11,349 nt of DNA from Prolixibacteraceae bacterium (GTDB lineage: Bacteria > Bacteroidota > Bacteroidia > Bacteroidales > Prolixibacteraceae), in NCBI GenBank assembly GCA_016931875.1, contig JAFGDX010000306.1, positions 1 to 11,349 on the forward strand, in the 5' to 3' direction. Of this stretch, positions 3,861 through 10,445 are shown in pieces. Each line of letters starts with the position of its first letter. The first letter of the stretch is position 1. The position numbers and the translations under genes are program-made. Under the pieces are notes generated by a model, which had not been told where the DNA came from, ran no database searches, and saw nothing but the letters and a program-made list of their open reading frames with translations.

Positions 3861-3893
3861 AATCCTGAAGATGATTTTTTCCCCAGGATATTT
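3849..3893 (-). terminator. Probable intrinsic terminator after the rhodanese-like gene
   Basis: On the minus strand the sequence ATCCTG (3884-3889) can pair with CAGGAT (3862-3867) across a 16-base loop. It is followed at once by TTTTTATTTT. Flanking A and T runs can extend the stem. It starts about 25 bases past the stop of the rhodanese-like gene, where the psr run should end. The stem is short and the loop large, so strength is uncertain. Confidence 0.45.
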
Positions 3894-3913: not shown

Positions 3914-4534
3914 TTAACATCCTCCCTGAACGGTTTTTTTCTTTGGCCGTTTCTGAATGGGTGGTGCAGGTGCGCTGACAGCAGGAGCTGACTGGGTATT
4001 TTCGGCATCGCCACCCAGAGCCAATCCGGCGCCTTTGCGCAAGTTGTATTTCAGAAACTCTTCGTTGGGACTGGTGTTTTCCGGTGCTTCCGGATTCATA
4101 ATCGTTTCGGCCCAGTAATTTAAACCTCCCTGTAAAACATAGTTGTTTTTGAATCCCAGCTGCCGTGTAATCATCCATGCTTCGTTGGCATCGTTACTGC
4201 CGTTGGAATAAAATACATTTAACTTCACATCCTGGTTGATGTAACCCTCCCATTCCGGATTCAGAATATCGGTCAGCGGAATATTGATGGCATTGGGTAA
4301 GCTGAATTTTTCAAATTCGTCGGCATTGCGTACATCAATCAATTGCAACGACGGGTCTTTTGAAACCAGCATATCGGCCACCTGGTCCGGATGAATAAAC
4401 TGAGTACCACTTTGTACTTCTTCCAGCAGTTGTTCGGCAGTAAGTTTATAGGGTTTGGTGGTATTTTCCGGAACAGCGGCAATGATCAACCCCAAAGGAA
4501 TCAGAACGGCTGCCAGTATTAATCTTGCTTTCAT
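3914..4534 (-). CDS. Exported rhodanese-like protein lacking the catalytic Cys, with C-terminal Gly-Gly-Cys
   Basis: A 206-residue protein with a short positively charged start and a hydrophobic segment at about 5-20 (signal peptide or membrane anchor), so the rest probably lies outside the inner membrane. Residues 45-147 form a rhodanese-like domain: LQLIDVRNADEF (63-74) is the classic DVR strand, followed by LPNAINIPL (79-87) and LQGGLNYW (134-141). Where rhodaneses have the persulfide-forming Cys (V-Y-C-x-x-G), this protein has FYSNGSND, with Ser110. The tail from about 150 is low in complexity, rich in Ala, Pro and Lys, and ends in KKKTVQGGC. That final Cys206 is the only cysteine in the protein. 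The gene is last in the psr run, 48 bases after a YeeE/YedE half. Classical sulfurtransferase activity is unlikely; a scaffold, or a sulfur carrier using the tail cysteine, is possible. Function unknown. Confidence 0.88.
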   Translation of the reverse strand: MKARLILAAVLIPLGLIIAAVPENTTKPYKLTAEQLLEEVQSGTQFIHPDQVADMLVSKDPSLQLIDVRNADEFEKFSLPNAINIPLTDILNPEWEGYINQDVKLNVFYSNGSNDANEAWMITRQLGFKNNYVLQGGLNYWAETIMNPEAPENTSPNEEFLKYNLRKGAGLALGGDAENTQSAPAVSAPAPPIQKRPKKKTVQGGC

Positions 4535-4582: not shown

Positions 4583-5188
4583 CTATTTTTGGTTCAGCTG
4601 ATAATCGCTGCGGGCAAATTTTCTTTCCGACCACTCACCCAAATAAAACATTCCGAGTGCAACCAGAATAATCAGGAAAGTAAGCAGTCCGCGGGATGTT
4701 CCCAAAACCTCGCTTAAAAGAGGCGCTCCCATAAATTTGGCGTTGTAAAATTCTTCCCACAACGGAAATCCTTCAGCAAAAATTAAGATTCCGATAAACA
4801 TTCCGCCGATAAAAGCCAGTGCATCCAACTTACCGATAGAGGCCGCGCAAAACGAGGTACCCGGGCAGTATCCGCCCAAAATAAAACCAGCGCCCATAAT
4901 TACCCCACCACCGATGGTTGACCACAAATACGTTGGATTGATGTAGATATAACTCAGGTCAATCCAGCCAAAAAGGCTCATAAACAACAGCCCTGTTGCA
5001 CCAACTATGGCTGCGGTGAAAAATACTTTTAAAACGGTGGTGTCATAACCATAAAACATTCCGGCCAAACGACGGCTTGATGAAAAGCCATTGGACTCGA
5101 GCACAAAGCCAAAACCAATTCCGATTAAAAAAGCCAGAAATAAATTTGTATTATCTGAAATTATTCCGTTAACAATTAATGGTCCCAT
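4583..5188 (-). CDS. YeeE/YedE-family sulfur transporter, half-size (GGYCPGTSFC half)
   Basis: A 201-residue membrane protein with the YeeE/YedE (sulf_transp, formerly DUF395) signature. GFGFVLESNGFSSSRRLAG at 25-43 matches the first conserved loop, and GGYCPGTSFCAAS (105-117) is the cysteine motif with Cys108 and Cys114. Hydrophobic segments lie near 17-30, 55-73, 92-106, 122-139 and 166-184. Full-length members such as the thiosulfate channel TsuA pass substrate along a few conserved cysteines; here the family is split into two proteins, this one and its upstream neighbour, which probably pair. The gap to the upstream gene is 40 bases. Thiosulfate, sulfide or a persulfide-like species are candidate substrates. 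Because the neighbours are a sulfur reductase, the alternative role of selenium-related transport known for some YedE proteins is less likely. Confidence 0.88.
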   Translation of the reverse strand: MGPLIVNGIISDNTNLFLAFLIGIGFGFVLESNGFSSSRRLAGMFYGYDTTVLKVFFTAAIVGATGLLFMSLFGWIDLSYIYINPTYLWSTIGGGVIMGAGFILGGYCPGTSFCAASIGKLDALAFIGGMFIGILIFAEGFPLWEEFYNAKFMGAPLLSEVLGTSRGLLTFLIILVALGMFYLGEWSERKFARSDYQLNQK

Positions 5189-5228: not shown

Positions 5229-5780
5229 TTAAATCCAAAGTTTTCGTGCAAAATAAGCCAGAGCGAATGCTGTACCAAAAATGGCTGCCATAGAAAGAAA
5301 CCCGCTGAGCGACAAAACCGCCATTCCGGTTAATGCCGACCCGCTGGTACATCCGCGGCCAAGTTGCGAGCCAAATCCAAAAAGAATACCCCCCAGCACA
5401 GCAAAAATCAACCTTGTTTTGCTGGTAATTTTAGGTGATTTTTCAACCTTGAATTTTAAGCGCCCGGCAATGGCGCCTGAAATAAAACCACCCACTATTA
5501 CCCCCAGCATCTGAAACACCAGCCATTCTTTCATTGGCTGAGGGTGCGTTTCCAGATAACCCTGGTAAAAAGCTGTGTTCTCAACGTGTTTCGGGGCCAC
5601 TGTTTTCACCCCTGTTACAATGGCGCTTTTGGCGGCACCACTGGCTCCCAGCCCACGGCCGGAAACCCAGAAGGCAATTATCAGTACCAACCCGAGCAAA
5701 ACCCCGCCCACATATGGATTCATGTATTTTTTCTGTTTCATTATTGTATTTTTTATTTTTTTGAATTCTAACTTTTCCAT
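5229..5780 (-). CDS. YeeE/YedE-family sulfur transporter, half-size (GRGCTSG half)
   Basis: A 183-residue membrane protein with the other YeeE/YedE cysteine motif, FGFGSQLGRGCTSGSAL (134-150). Its single cysteine is Cys144. Hydrophobic segments lie near 23-40, 88-106, 123-138 and 152-176, with an extended loop between about 41 and 87. It would complement the downstream half to give one GCTSG plus one CPGTSFC motif, as in a full-length transporter. It starts only 6 bases after the psrC stop, so it is almost certainly co-transcribed with the reductase. The first ATG (5780) has GGGA directly before it; a later ATG at 5741 gives a more usual N-terminus (MKQKKYMNPY), so the first 13 residues are doubtful. 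Confidence 0.87.
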   Translation of the reverse strand: MEKLEFKKIKNTIMKQKKYMNPYVGGVLLGLVLIIAFWVSGRGLGASGAAKSAIVTGVKTVAPKHVENTAFYQGYLETHPQPMKEWLVFQMLGVIVGGFISGAIAGRLKFKVEKSPKITSKTRLIFAVLGGILFGFGSQLGRGCTSGSALTGMAVLSLSGFLSMAAIFGTAFALAYFARKLWI

Positions 5781-5786
5781 TCCCGG

Positions 5787-6728
5787 CTAATACAGCCAGC
5801 GGCTAAGCTGACCGGCGTAAGCAAAAACAAACCGCAGCATCAAACTTCCAAACAACACCAACACTACCGGAATAACATGCGGAATATGAAATTTTTTCAG
5901 CTCCAGAAACTCAAGCACCGCCGGCACAATCATCCCGATGATGACCACAAAAATCCAGAACGGCGCTGTATATTGCCCGCCCAGAAACAGGTTGGCAGCT
6001 TCAATCTGTACTTCGGTGCTGGCCAAAAAGCCCATAAACATGTGAACAATCAGAAACAACTCAATGCCAATAAGCATGATATCAATTTTGGCAAAATTTA
6101 CCCGTTCTCCCTTTCGTTTCGAAAAGAGAATAATTACCGCCGCTCCTGCCGACAAACCGGAAGTTAAAAACAGCGGCCCCAAAATGGATGTATTCCATAA
6201 CGGGCGGGCATTAAATGCCGAAAACAAAATTCCGGTGTAAATACCTAAAATTACTGAAAGAAAAAGAGTTACCCATGCCAGGTAAATTTTGTTTTTCACA
6301 AAAAACAGTTCCAGTTCTTTAAAAATGAGCCACTTCCATTCCCATTTGGGCAAAAATTCTTTTATGTGAATAGCTACCCATATAAATGAAATCGGCGTGA
6401 TGGCCATCAAAGTCCAGGCACCCCACGACATGGGTGACTGTAATTTTATTGTGGTATACAATTGCCAGAAATACATTTTATGTTTCAGGTCGAGAAACAA
6501 CGCCGCCAATCCAACTATAAGTAAAATAGGAACGATAACCGGAGCCCGGCGGACAGCTCCCCGAAACTGATTTTCCTTGCCAAGCACAACATATAAACTG
6601 GCAAAAAAGAGGATGCCGGCTGCCAGACCTCCCAAGAACAGGTACAAGGGAATGTGCCAGTGCCAGATTTCCAAATGCGGGTCGATATTCGGATTCAATC
6701 TTCCTGATGTGATTATTTCTTCTCTCAT
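5787..6728 (-). CDS. psrC: NrfD/PsrC-type membrane subunit of a sulfur-compound reductase
   Basis: Integral membrane subunit that exchanges electrons with the quinone pool and passes them to or from the iron-sulfur subunit. The 313 residues show eight likely transmembrane helices, near 25-49, 62-80, 99-122, 148-170, 178-203, 215-236, 255-276 and 285-307, as in PsrC of Thermus thermophilus. Family hallmarks are WHWHIPLYLFLGGLAAG (22-38) and the loop GILFSAFNARPLWNTSILGP (166-185). It begins 10 bases after psrB and ends 6 bases before the first YeeE/YedE half. NrfD proteins also serve nitrite, tetrathionate, arsenate and DMSO reductases. The psrC name rests on the catalytic subunit and the sulfur neighbours, so the subunit class is sure and the substrate is not. 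Confidence 0.9.
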   Translation of the reverse strand: MREEIITSGRLNPNIDPHLEIWHWHIPLYLFLGGLAAGILFFASLYVVLGKENQFRGAVRRAPVIVPILLIVGLAALFLDLKHKMYFWQLYTTIKLQSPMSWGAWTLMAITPISFIWVAIHIKEFLPKWEWKWLIFKELELFFVKNKIYLAWVTLFLSVILGIYTGILFSAFNARPLWNTSILGPLFLTSGLSAGAAVIILFSKRKGERVNFAKIDIMLIGIELFLIVHMFMGFLASTEVQIEAANLFLGGQYTAPFWIFVVIIGMIVPAVLEFLELKKFHIPHVIPVVLVLFGSLMLRFVFAYAGQLSRWLY

Positions 6729-6738
6729 AAGTTTACTT

Positions 6739-7272
6739 TTAAATCAGGTAATACACATGGGGTTTTGTTCCGGCTTCAGGAATAAGCGTTTTGCTTTTTC
6801 GTTTTTTCAGAACCTGCGAAATGTCGCTGTTCGGGTCGTCCAGGTCGCCAAAATACATACATTTTGTTGGGCAAACTTCCACGCAAGCAGGCTGCTGCCC
6901 TTTTTTTACGCGGTGTAAACAAAAGGTACACTTATCAACATATCCATCCGGATGTGAATATCTTGCATCATACGGGCAGGACTGAATACAGGCGCCGCAA
7001 CCAATACATTCGTTGTGGGTTACTGTAACAATTCCGCCGGCTTCATAGTGGCTGGCTCCGGTGGGACAACACCGCACACAAGGTGAATTCTCGCAGTGGT
7101 TGCACCGTTCTGAACGAATTTCAATTTCCAGCTGAGGATATGTACCATCGGTAACTTCCACAATCCAGTCGCGGCAATATCCAATCGGAACATTGTTTTC
7201 AGTCTGACAAGCCACCACACAATCTGAGCAGCCCACACATTTTTTGGTATCAATAGCCATCGCATATCTCAT
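6739..7272 (-). CDS. psrB: Four-cluster [4Fe-4S] ferredoxin subunit (PsrB/PhsB/DmsB type)
   Basis: Electron-transfer subunit that wires the NrfD membrane protein to the molybdopterin subunit. The 177 residues carry sixteen cluster cysteines in the order typical of this family: Cys12/15/18/22, Cys57/60/65/69, Cys89/92/95/99 and Cys115/118/130/134. Extra cysteines occur at 33, 68 and 138. There is no signal peptide, as expected for a subunit exported together with its Tat-bearing partner. Its ATG overlaps the psrA stop as ATGA (7269-7272), so the two are translationally coupled; MAIDTKKCVGC starting at 7260 is a possible alternative start. The KKRK stretch near 156-159 and the C-terminal segment follow the last cluster. 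Confidence 0.94.
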   Translation of the reverse strand: MRYAMAIDTKKCVGCSDCVVACQTENNVPIGYCRDWIVEVTDGTYPQLEIEIRSERCNHCENSPCVRCCPTGASHYEAGGIVTVTHNECIGCGACIQSCPYDARYSHPDGYVDKCTFCLHRVKKGQQPACVEVCPTKCMYFGDLDDPNSDISQVLKKRKSKTLIPEAGTKPHVYYLI

Positions 7273-9512
7273 GACTGCACCTCACTTTCTTTTTCCAGCC
7301 GGAAGGTTACAAAATTACCACGCATTCCGGTTCCCCCCATAATCGGGTCGAGTAAAACCCTGGTTATCAACTGCGAGTCGCTGGCTCCTTTGCCATGGGC
7401 ACGACTCAGTTTTTTATTGGAATGCCCAAATCCGTGTACAATGTAAACCGAATCGAAGCGGATTCGTTCGGTTATCCGTACTTTCACCGCAAAATCAGTA
7501 ACTATCCCATCCTGGTTTTCCAGATAAACTTCCTGTCCGTTTTTCAAATACCATTGCCTGGCCACTTTCGGATTTACCCAAACCGTATTTTCATCCATTA
7601 AATCGGTAAGATTCGGATTGTTGGCCGTGCGGCTAAACGTATGCATCGGCGCTCTTCCGTAATTCAAATGATAATACCCTTCCGGTGGTTCAGCGTGGGG
7701 TGTGTACACAGGCATCGGGTCAAAACCTTCTTCGGCCAGTGCGGTGGAATACAACTCTATTTTCCCGGTATTTGTGTTGAATTCGATGTCTTCTCCCGGC
7801 TGAAAATATAAATCATCGTATGCCCGCGGCAGGTTTTTCACCCCTATTCGTTTCATTTCATCAAGCGAAGAGCCGACTTGTTTTAACTGCCAGTCCAGCA
7901 TTTCTTCAAATGAATTCCAGGCAAAATAATCTTCCAGCCCCAATCGTTTTGAAAGCTCCTTAGCCATCCAGTAGGCAGGTTTTGAATTGTATTTGGGTTC
8001 GGCTGCCGGTGCCCGGAGTGCAATACTTGGTTCCCTGCCCTGTGCCAGACGAAAATCGTCCCAGCGTTCAAGATAGGTGCACTCCGGCAACACTATATCG
8101 GCATAACCGGTAATCTCCATCGGCATGGTATCAACTACCACAAGTAAATCGAGATTATTTATCGCGTCAATGGTTTTTTTCTGATCGGGTAAAGTCATAA
8201 TCAGGTTGGTCCCGTTCACAATCCAGCCTTTAATATTGCAATCGAGCTCCGGCGAAGGAATAGTTGCATCGCAAACTCCCGATGCCAAAGCCAAATCGGC
8301 CAGGTTATATTTTCCTCCCATGGCATCGCGCCAGGTACGTGTTGGTGCCGGGAAAGGTGGATGCGGATAATCGGGCAGGCTCATTTTATCGGGAACAAAA
8401 AAACCGCCCCTGCGTCCCCACGATCCCAGCAAGGCATTCAGAATGGCAACCGCTCTTAAACGCTGTGTATCATCACCGTACCAGGTAACATGCCGCCCGG
8501 GGTGAATAATTACCGAAGGCGAGGCATTTGCCATTTCTCTGGCGGTTTCCCTGATCTGGCCCGGGCTTATCGTTGTAATTCCGTACGCCCATTCCGGGGT
8601 AAACGGCTGAACATAAGCTTTCAACTGGTCAAAACCGTAGGCATATTTTTCAATGTATTCGCGGTCGTACCACTCGTTATTGACAATTTCACGAATCCAG
8701 GAGAGCAACAGTGCAATATCAGTGGCTGGTTTTATTGGCAACCAATGTTTCGATTTGCTTGCCACTGTTGAAAACCGCGGATCAACAGTAATAATTGTGG
8801 CACCTTTGTCAATGGCGTCCGACAGTTCCTGCACCTGTCCGTTGTGCATGTTTTCTCCCAAGTGCGAACCAATCAGCACCAGACAGCGGGTATCGCGAAT
8901 ATCGGTAGGTTCGGGCGAATTCAACCCTGAACCAAATGTTGCAATAAAAGCTACTTCGCGCGGACCACGGCATTGTGCATACGATGGTGCAGCTATATTC
9001 CCCGAACCAAAAGCTTTTAGCAGGGTTCCCCAGTAGTGGCCCCCCGAACCGTGTGTAAACAGGGCAGTACATTCGGGCCCGTGTTCTTCTTTTATTTTTA
9101 CAAGTTTTTCTGCAATAAAATCAAATGCCTCGTCCCACGAAACTTCTTTGTAGCTTTGTTTTCCATCGGCACCGGTAACCCTCATCAAAGGCGTTTTCAA
9201 CCGGTCTTCATCGTAATACATCCCCACTCCGCCGGTACCACGCGGACAAAACCGCCCGTTGCAGTTGGGATCATCGTCGTTCCCTACAATCTTTTTAATC
9301 GAACCATCCTCGTTTTTATACACCCAGCCTGCACATTGCCAGAAACACACCTCGCAATAGGTAGGTGTGCGCTGTAAATCAACATCGCCCCCCGAAGTTT
9401 GATTCGCCTGCAAAAATTGTGGCATGGCCGATTGCAGATACTTTGCCCCGGCCAGCACTCCGGCAGTGCTCAACGATGAAATCCGAATAAAATCGCGCCT
9501 GGTTTTTGCCAT
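7269..9512 (-). CDS. psrA: Tat-exported molybdopterin catalytic subunit, polysulfide/thiosulfate reductase type
   Basis: Catalytic subunit of the DMSO-reductase superfamily with bis-molybdopterin guanine dinucleotide and one [4Fe-4S] cluster. A Tat signal is clear (TRRDFIRISS, 4-13, then a hydrophobic stretch to about 24), so it works outside the cytoplasmic membrane. The cluster cysteines are Cys53, Cys56, Cys60 and Cys89 (NGRFCPRGTGG). Cys181 in SYAQCRGPREVAF is the likely Mo ligand, as in PsrA/PhsA. The 747-residue length matches polysulfide and thiosulfate reductases (about 755-765). It leads an operon with a ferredoxin, an NrfD protein, two YeeE/YedE halves and a rhodanese-like protein, which favours reduction of polysulfide, thiosulfate or tetrathionate. 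Arsenate or another oxyanion cannot be excluded from sequence, and the reverse (oxidising) direction is possible. The AGGAT just before the ATG is a weak, unusually close ribosome binding site. Confidence 0.9.
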   Translation of the reverse strand: MAKTRRDFIRISSLSTAGVLAGAKYLQSAMPQFLQANQTSGGDVDLQRTPTYCEVCFWQCAGWVYKNEDGSIKKIVGNDDDPNCNGRFCPRGTGGVGMYYDEDRLKTPLMRVTGADGKQSYKEVSWDEAFDFIAEKLVKIKEEHGPECTALFTHGSGGHYWGTLLKAFGSGNIAAPSYAQCRGPREVAFIATFGSGLNSPEPTDIRDTRCLVLIGSHLGENMHNGQVQELSDAIDKGATIITVDPRFSTVASKSKHWLPIKPATDIALLLSWIREIVNNEWYDREYIEKYAYGFDQLKAYVQPFTPEWAYGITTISPGQIRETAREMANASPSVIIHPGRHVTWYGDDTQRLRAVAILNALLGSWGRRGGFFVPDKMSLPDYPHPPFPAPTRTWRDAMGGKYNLADLALASGVCDATIPSPELDCNIKGWIVNGTNLIMTLPDQKKTIDAINNLDLLVVVDTMPMEITGYADIVLPECTYLERWDDFRLAQGREPSIALRAPAAEPKYNSKPAYWMAKELSKRLGLEDYFAWNSFEEMLDWQLKQVGSSLDEMKRIGVKNLPRAYDDLYFQPGEDIEFNTNTGKIELYSTALAEEGFDPMPVYTPHAEPPEGYYHLNYGRAPMHTFSRTANNPNLTDLMDENTVWVNPKVARQWYLKNGQEVYLENQDGIVTDFAVKVRITERIRFDSVYIVHGFGHSNKKLSRAHGKGASDSQLITRVLLDPIMGGTGMRGNFVTFRLEKESEVQS

Positions 9513-10367: not shown

Positions 10368-10445
10368 TGGGGTGGTAGACCGGATTTGAACCGGCGACCT
10401 CTGGAACCACAATCCAGCGTTCTAACCAACTGAACTACAACCACC
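10368..10445 (-). tRNA. tRNA-His (anticodon GTG)
   Basis: The minus strand folds as a complete cloverleaf. It has an extra 5' G (G-1, at 10445) facing C73, which is diagnostic of tRNA-His. The D stem is GTTC/GAAC, the anticodon stem CTGGA/TCCAG encloses loop TTGTGGT with GTG at 10408-10410, the T loop is TTCGAAT, and CCA is encoded (10368-10370). The acceptor stem pairs GTGGTTG with CTACCAC and leaves a T-T mismatch at position 6:67. The T stem has one G-T pair at its base. Both are tolerable, and the terminator and promoter around it suggest a working gene. Confidence 0.96.

Follow-up and report, generated by a model that had tools for sequence, protein, structure and literature searches.

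The question raised by this locus is what role is left to a rhodanese-like protein that has no catalytic cysteine and carries its only thiol as the very last residue. The protein, here called RH1, is a pseudo-rhodanese of 206 amino acids with a terminal Gly-Gly-Cys arm, encoded on the minus strand (3914–4534, read from 4534 to 3914) of the window, i.e. the whole 11,349-nucleotide stretch of Prolixibacteraceae DNA that was analysed. Residues 49–143 (4106–4390; limits from the Pfam scan and an AlphaFold2 model) match the rhodanese superfamily PF00581 (E 3.3e-15), so that the rhodanese fold is present, and no other Pfam family, the SoxY domain PF13501 and the DsrC domain included, is matched at E<=0.01. 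Catalytic rhodaneses form a persulfide on a cysteine of the active-site loop; in RH1 this position is taken by Ser110 (codon 4205–4207, minus strand), as the sequence-only reading had proposed. The chain ends KKKTVQGGC, the sole cysteine being Cys206, and the codons of Gly204-Gly205-Cys206 lie at 3917–3925 (minus strand). In the AlphaFold2 model the rhodanese core is mostly above pLDDT 90, helices are placed at residues 3–19 and 157–172, and from residue 171 onward the ten-residue pLDDT means fall to 38–53. The tail had been described as flexible and about 55 residues long. Disorder is supported by the model, but these pLDDT values put the length of the Ala/Pro/Lys-rich arm closer to 34 residues (173–206; 3917–4018, minus strand), comprising a variable linker and an invariant tip.

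The tip and the missing catalytic residue are both strongly conserved. Among the best 120 of 2613 matches to RH1, all 120 terminate in GGC and each has exactly one cysteine. A genome scan gave 131 confirmed candidates, from which 80 named loci were retained; 76 of the 78 complete proteins end in GGC and the other two in GGCS (the end is present in 78/78 if these are counted), while the remaining two proteins are cut by contig ends. Ser110 is retained in 80/80 named loci and 76/78 complete proteins have one cysteine beyond the N-terminal segment, so the serine substitution and the terminal cysteine are conserved together, as the earlier interpretation had asked to be checked. In 92 further RH1 proteins the active-site column holds Ser in 87, Gly in 3, Thr in 1 and Ala in 1, and Cys in none (0/92). 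The conservation of the terminal GGC across homologs means that the tail is neither a chance ending nor the sequencing frameshift that had been considered as an objection.

It could still be supposed that RH1 is simply a decaying rhodanese whose C-terminal cysteine is of no importance, since the catalytic cysteine is absent. This is very improbable. In an alignment of 75 sequences, which reaches down to 33% identity and includes a paralog family 33–38% identical, Gly204, Gly205 and Cys206 have zero entropy while linker residues 178–190 drift at 2.5–3.2 bits. Nor is a terminal cysteine a common feature of the neighbourhood: none of 619 ORF matches to nine further classes of window genes (duplicates and cut ORFs counted) ends in Cys. 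In the YeeB class a GGC(x) end occurs in 12 of 199 ORFs, each of them a YeeB-rhodanese fusion. A DNA scan of the same genome for GG-C-stop, with a pattern that omits TAG stops, returned 34 sites; among the 30 given as loci, the target alone ends an ORF of at least 120 amino acids.

RH1 is the last gene of an operon that lies entirely on the minus strand, with the order PsrA-PsrB-NrfD-YeeA-YeeB upstream of it. The first gene (7269–9512) encodes a PsrA/PhsA-type molybdopterin catalytic subunit, with 2vpw as best solved match (E 1.2e-194) and an N-terminal RR motif recognized by eye. It is followed by a PsrB-type iron-sulfur subunit (6739–7272), an NrfD/PsrC-type membrane subunit (5787–6728; PF03916, E 1e-43), and the two halves of a YeeE/YedE protein: YeeA (5229–5780), which corresponds to the C-terminal half (PF04143 positions 173–309), and YeeB (4583–5188), the N-terminal half (positions 11–161). 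The association with a split YeeE/YedE transporter and a sulfur reductase, previously read from this single locus, recurs elsewhere: the complete order including the rhodanese gene is found in 66/80 named loci; in 13 of the other 14 it is interrupted by a contig end, and in L052 YeeB is split over two frames. A terminator-like hairpin lies immediately 3' of the RH1 gene (3862–3889, minus strand), matching by consensus only and not exceeding expectation (1 found, shuffle mean 1.9). Beyond it are a TauE-type protein (Pfam scan) and molybdenum-cofactor genes, presumably MoeA, MoaA and MoaC. A tRNA-His gene is located at 10368–10444 on the minus strand. A comparable neighbourhood has been noted in the Bacteroidetes/Chlorobi group, with psrABC, two PF04143 genes and a downstream rhodanese gene in Ca. 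Thermonerobacter (PMC6338057); the available excerpt of that account makes no mention of a lost catalytic cysteine, a GGC arm or shared tails.

The two transporter halves offer few conserved thiols. YeeB has an invariant Cys108 (4865–4867; 178/178) and a second cysteine, Cys114, in 81% of sequences, while YeeA has a single conserved Cys144 (5349–5351; 174/174), around which it can be aligned with TsuA. YeeB alone found no match among PDB sequences at E 0.01. The site of YeeA, GCTSG, resembles the GUxSG motif that contains the Sec residue of a YeeE/YedE family selenoprotein, as given in the accessible text of PMC13188914. A similar division is described for the YeeE/YedE importers SoxT and PmpA-PmpB, where PmpB matches the N-half and PmpA the C-half, with one conserved cysteine each (PMC11582611); YeeA and YeeB are likewise split halves with one conserved cysteine apiece. 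In the sections available of the same source, transfer of sulfur from SoxY to the SoxT cysteines is proposed and called conceivable, and the route by which carrier-bound periplasmic sulfur enters the cytoplasm via YeeE-like proteins is described as poorly understood or not known. A dedicated rhodanese-arm donor is not described in those sections, whereas in the present operon the gene of a candidate donor adjoins that of the N-half, and in relatives the two are fused. A full-length YeeE/YedE gene occurs elsewhere in the same genome (contig C201, L083), adjoining a TetR-like regulator (by eye), and no rhodanese gene was noticed in that fetched stretch.

Fusion is seen in one clade, where YeeB and RH1 form a single protein of ~400 amino acids. 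All 120 fusion homologs listed have PF04143, PF00581 and a GGC end, and among the loci a GGC(x) end is found in 12 of 14 closed fusion ORFs (L074, one of the named loci, included). RH1 genes thus not only follow both YeeE/YedE halves, as an examination of their neighbours had been expected to reveal, but in some lineages are joined to one of them. The fusions also bear on the N-terminus, which had been taken for an export signal. The hydrophobic segment at the start of RH1 (residues 3–21; 4472–4528, minus strand; Kyte-Doolittle 2.5) becomes an internal segment in the fusions, and together with the charge distribution, judged by simple hydropathy, this would place the rhodanese outside the membrane. 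An export signal is uncertain, and a retained, uncleaved membrane anchor is more likely. Thirteen of the 14 fusion ORFs adjoin an octaheme cytochrome of the tetrathionate-reductase family (TIGR04315, E 1.7e-163 in L218) and a cytochrome b561; this pair lies next to YeeA and the fusion in L218, L207, L220, L222, L223, L224, L226–L229, L231, L232 and L074. Twelve of these 13 loci are without PsrABC. L074 has Psr and octaheme operons side by side, each with a separate arm protein, and both Psr and the octaheme pair occur in L186 and L199, where no fusion is present. L225 has no octaheme or cytochrome b match in 12.4 kb, and no PsrABC; its 373-residue YeeB-rhodanese fusion lacks the GGC end, and the next ORF, a rhodanese-like one, has it.

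Two known periplasmic proteins resemble RH1 more closely than the DsrC/TusE and MoaD/ThiS carriers with which it had been compared. The DsrC domain is absent from RH1 (Pfam scan, E<=0.01), and MoaD and ThiS are beta-grasp proteins ending in Gly-Gly, whereas RH1 is rhodanese only and ends in Gly-Gly-Cys. The profile of RH1 matches 1qxn ('sulfide dehydrogenase', E 1.8e-4), which we take to be Sud of Wolinella succinogenes; 1qxn is not among the 50 structural matches listed. Sud is the partner of polysulfide reductase, and uses the single cysteine of its rhodanese active-site loop. RH1 loci share with it a rhodanese-fold protein encoded with a polysulfide reductase, but RH1 has serine at the active-site position and its sole thiol on a C-terminal arm. 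Sud is described as a periplasmic sulfurtransferase on which sulfur chains as long as ten atoms were built (excerpt of PMC3397948). The second precedent is SoxY, whose GGCGG cysteine has an established sulfur-binding function on a C-terminal swinging arm (PMC6067878, PMC5336275, in the parts available). SoxY and, by prediction, RH1 are both extracytoplasmic carriers with the cargo cysteine on an arm. They differ in that SoxY has another fold (PF13501), a SoxZ partner and a role in periplasmic thiosulfate oxidation, while RH1 has a rhodanese scaffold, probably anchored in the membrane, a cysteine in the last or last-but-one position, and a PsrABC-type operon; its conserved GGC is not followed by the second GG of the SoxY arm. 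A search for the SoxY family in eight isolate relatives gave 0/8, but the control was equally silent.

Because conserved thiols are few (Cys206 and those of YeeA and YeeB) and SoxY, SoxT and Sud provide precedents, RH1 is read as a protein of Sud-like fold with an arm of the SoxY kind. It is likely, judging from sequence and gene context, that RH1 is a sulfur carrier tethered to the inner membrane and facing the periplasm, and the strict conservation of the tip suggests that the arm probably passes sulfur around outside the cell membrane. The rhodanese domain, catalytically dead through Ser110, would act as scaffold and docking domain, and the Cys206 thiol at the tip of the flexible arm would be the cargo site, as in SoxY. 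Sulfane sulfur, as a persulfide or short polysulfide chain, may be loaded onto Cys206 from polysulfide or thiosulfate chemistry, or, in relatives, from the companion tandem rhodanese, whose active-site cysteine is intact. The arm would then deliver it to the active site of PsrA, where it would be reduced to sulfide, to the conserved cysteines of the split YeeE/YedE channel, by which it would be imported, or to both. Periplasmic topology, persulfide cargo, direction of flow and partners are the predicted parts of this scheme.

RH1 is not the only protein with such an arm. The same genome has a second locus (L087; contig C273, 1–3850) with another YeeB and a pseudo-rhodanese paralog, 39–41% identical, that ends DGGCE and has Gly at the active site; of the 120 homologs listed for this paralog, 119 end in GGC plus 0–1 residue and one ends DGACE. 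Two more L087 proteins have no arm: a companion of 151 residues that is matched by no Pfam family, and a tandem rhodanese encoded on the opposite strand. A lipoprotein-like protein of ~350 residues adjoins the armless tandem rhodanese in four loci (L087:39-1091, L206:8841-9911, L213:3308-4345, L230:3077-4138), and Pfam gives no match for the copy in L087. In 113 further loci (after dropping 4 duplicates) the operons contain RH1, often a divergent rhodanese-like protein, RH2, and a tandem rhodanese, RH3, the three classes being assigned by score and length. RH3 proteins mostly have a lipobox-like start and all 26 have a cysteine in the loop of the second domain (by pattern and by eye); a few lack the cysteine of the first domain. 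A GGC(x) end is found in closed ORFs of 93/96 RH1 (3 without), 66/76 RH2 (10 without) and 18/26 RH3 (8 without; the fusions of L225 and L228 are left out of this count). The aligned active-site column has Cys in 5/76 RH2 and in 0/11 fusions. An ordinary active-site cysteine or a missing arm in homologues of the same context had been named as evidence against a special carrier; RH1 itself is free of the former, but among its paralogs these five RH2 proteins have the cysteine and some members are armless.

Several of the exceptions have features of their own. RH1 and RH2 of L149 and L210 both end in EGC, a joint departure from the motif. The RH2 frame of L140 stops early, with a GGC-like end readable just downstream in another frame, and may be frameshifted. 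In L197 and L200 RH2 ends in CPDLN, whereas RH1 and RH3 of each operon share a GGCG tail; in L186 and L199 RH3 ends in EVCD and RH1 and RH2 in GGGCD, so that the residue after the cysteine agrees. Non-rhodanese ORFs of at least 80 residues with a GGC(x) end number two in the fetched loci other than L090–L119: one of 83 residues antisense to PsrA in L020, the other in L223, at the place of RH2 and resembling a weak RH2.

The arms of one operon resemble each other to a degree that the domains do not. In the 12-residue stretch that leads up to the terminal triplet, RH1 and RH2 tails are 0.619 identical within 63 operons, against a mean of 0.265 and a maximum of 0.333 in 5000 shuffles of the partners (the permutation is limited to proteins ending in Cys or Cys+1, and counts fusions as RH1). 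Such an excess is almost absent from the domain cores, whose identity is 0.215 within operons and 0.209 after shuffling (maximum 0.219). The residue following the cysteine matches in 61/63 operons (shuffle maximum 49). RH1-RH3 tails (0.417 vs 0.164 shuffled, maximum 0.301) and RH2-RH3 tails (0.338 vs 0.132, maximum 0.259), each in 18 operons, behave similarly. With near-duplicates removed, RH1-RH2 identity is 0.611 vs 0.26 in 61 operons. When the tail of the own partner is compared with that of the nearest relative, it is closer in 44 operons, farther in 8 and tied in 11 (Wilcoxon p 1.4e-6). Gene conversion as the sole cause is weakened, since 297/649 identical tail residues are encoded by different codons and the stop codons differ in 26/63 pairs, which makes recent DNA copying alone insufficient; an ancient conversion followed by selection is a possible source. 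Selection seems to keep the tails of different scaffolds alike, which would imply a common partner or exchange between arms. It looks unusual that different scaffolds should evolve in concert at the C-terminal arm and nowhere else, and this points to a partner that they share.

Such tails, specific to each genome and common to different scaffolds of one operon, would also fit a single reader of another kind, for which the tail would be a signal for recognition, docking or processing, and the terminal cysteine an attachment point, for lipid, protein or metal for instance, rather than a thiol that carries sulfur. A polybasic stretch beside the cysteine in many members agrees with this. Nonetheless it is unlikely: a hydrophobic anchor is already present, or a lipobox in some RH2 and RH3 (by eye), inspection by eye of the seven loci listed gene by gene revealed no modifying enzyme that recurs, and every recurrent neighbour that could be identified is a sulfur or redox protein. 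The sequence upstream, moreover, ranges from Lys-rich to acidic while Gly-Gly-Cys alone is nearly constant.

The idea of a single carrier, while in keeping with the anatomy, conservation and context of RH1, is too narrow in view of several scaffolds that share one tail. Our tentative proposal, held with slightly less than even confidence, is that Bacteroidota have a multi-scaffold extracytoplasmic relay in which a tethered dead rhodanese, a mostly dead second one and a live tandem rhodanese share one genome-specific, interchangeable GGC arm. Sulfur would move arm to arm, from thiol to thiol, from the live rhodanese to the reductase (PsrABC, or octaheme cytochrome plus cytochrome b) as well as into the channel made of the two YeeE halves, with the shared tail as the private address of the relay. 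Protein-bound extracytoplasmic sulfur carriers are already known, and what is new here is the unrelated scaffold and the presence of several carriers with a common arm. The parts available of the open-licence PMC literature held no description of the GGC arm, the lost catalytic cysteine, the sharing of tails or the fusion.

Among 198 genomes of the order, PsrA (E<=1e-200) is found in 58 and a rhodanese homolog (E<=1e-15) in 78, and all 58 PsrA genomes have the homolog (Fisher p 3e-33, uncorrected for relatedness). Twelve of the 20 genomes with the homolog and without PsrA are of the fusion type, with L225 as the thirteenth, and some of the remaining PsrA-less loci carry other Psr subunits (e.g. 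L160, L169, L194). YeeE is present and Psr absent in 22/109 loci, in many of them because the flank covers only ~1.5 kb. In L206, L213 and L230, YeeE halves and an arm occur with no Psr within ~4–5 kb upstream, so an adjacent Psr is not obligatory. Conversely, G296 (99% complete) has arms beside PsrB and NrfD, yet zero PF04143 matches, so YeeE is not obligatory either. Neither the enzyme nor the channel alone accounts for an arm that persists without one or the other; a shuttle between them would. G296 also bears on a further alternative, in which the terminal cysteine carries no sulfur and is instead disulfide-bonded, in a structural or regulatory role, to a cysteine of YeeA, YeeB or another arm, so that the channel or reductase is locked or gated. 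One invariant cysteine in each of YeeA and YeeB, and the proximity displayed by the rhodanese-YeeB fusion, are compatible with it, but it leaves unexplained the arms of G296, the two or three arms per operon and the arms on tandem rhodaneses with intact active-site cysteines, and is more doubtful than a recognition signal.

Within Bacteroidota the arm system is patchy: 6/395 genomes of a phylum-wide sample pass E 1e-25, and 25/299 genomes from the family of G134 pass E 1e-12 with a different query. Named members belong to Bacteroidota, apart from single MAGs labelled Neomarinimicrobiota (L068), Chlorobiota (L026) and FCB group (L065). Among the carriers of the operon are marine bacteria that can be cultivated, such as Labilibaculum, Sunxiuqinia, Mangrovibacterium and Mariniphaga. 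The advantage of this material is that a candidate donor with a single thiol stands beside the importer, or in relatives is fused to it, and has homologs in 78/198 genomes of the order, which makes the question of how carrier-bound sulfur reaches the cytoplasm testable with one cysteine mutant. TusA, sought as the cytoplasmic acceptor, gave no match in G000 (71% complete), G134 or G296. TusA matches are present in 7/8 isolate genomes, and all seven have one within a frame of ~830 residues (L239–L245), where the TusA domain is a possible cytoplasmic acceptor.
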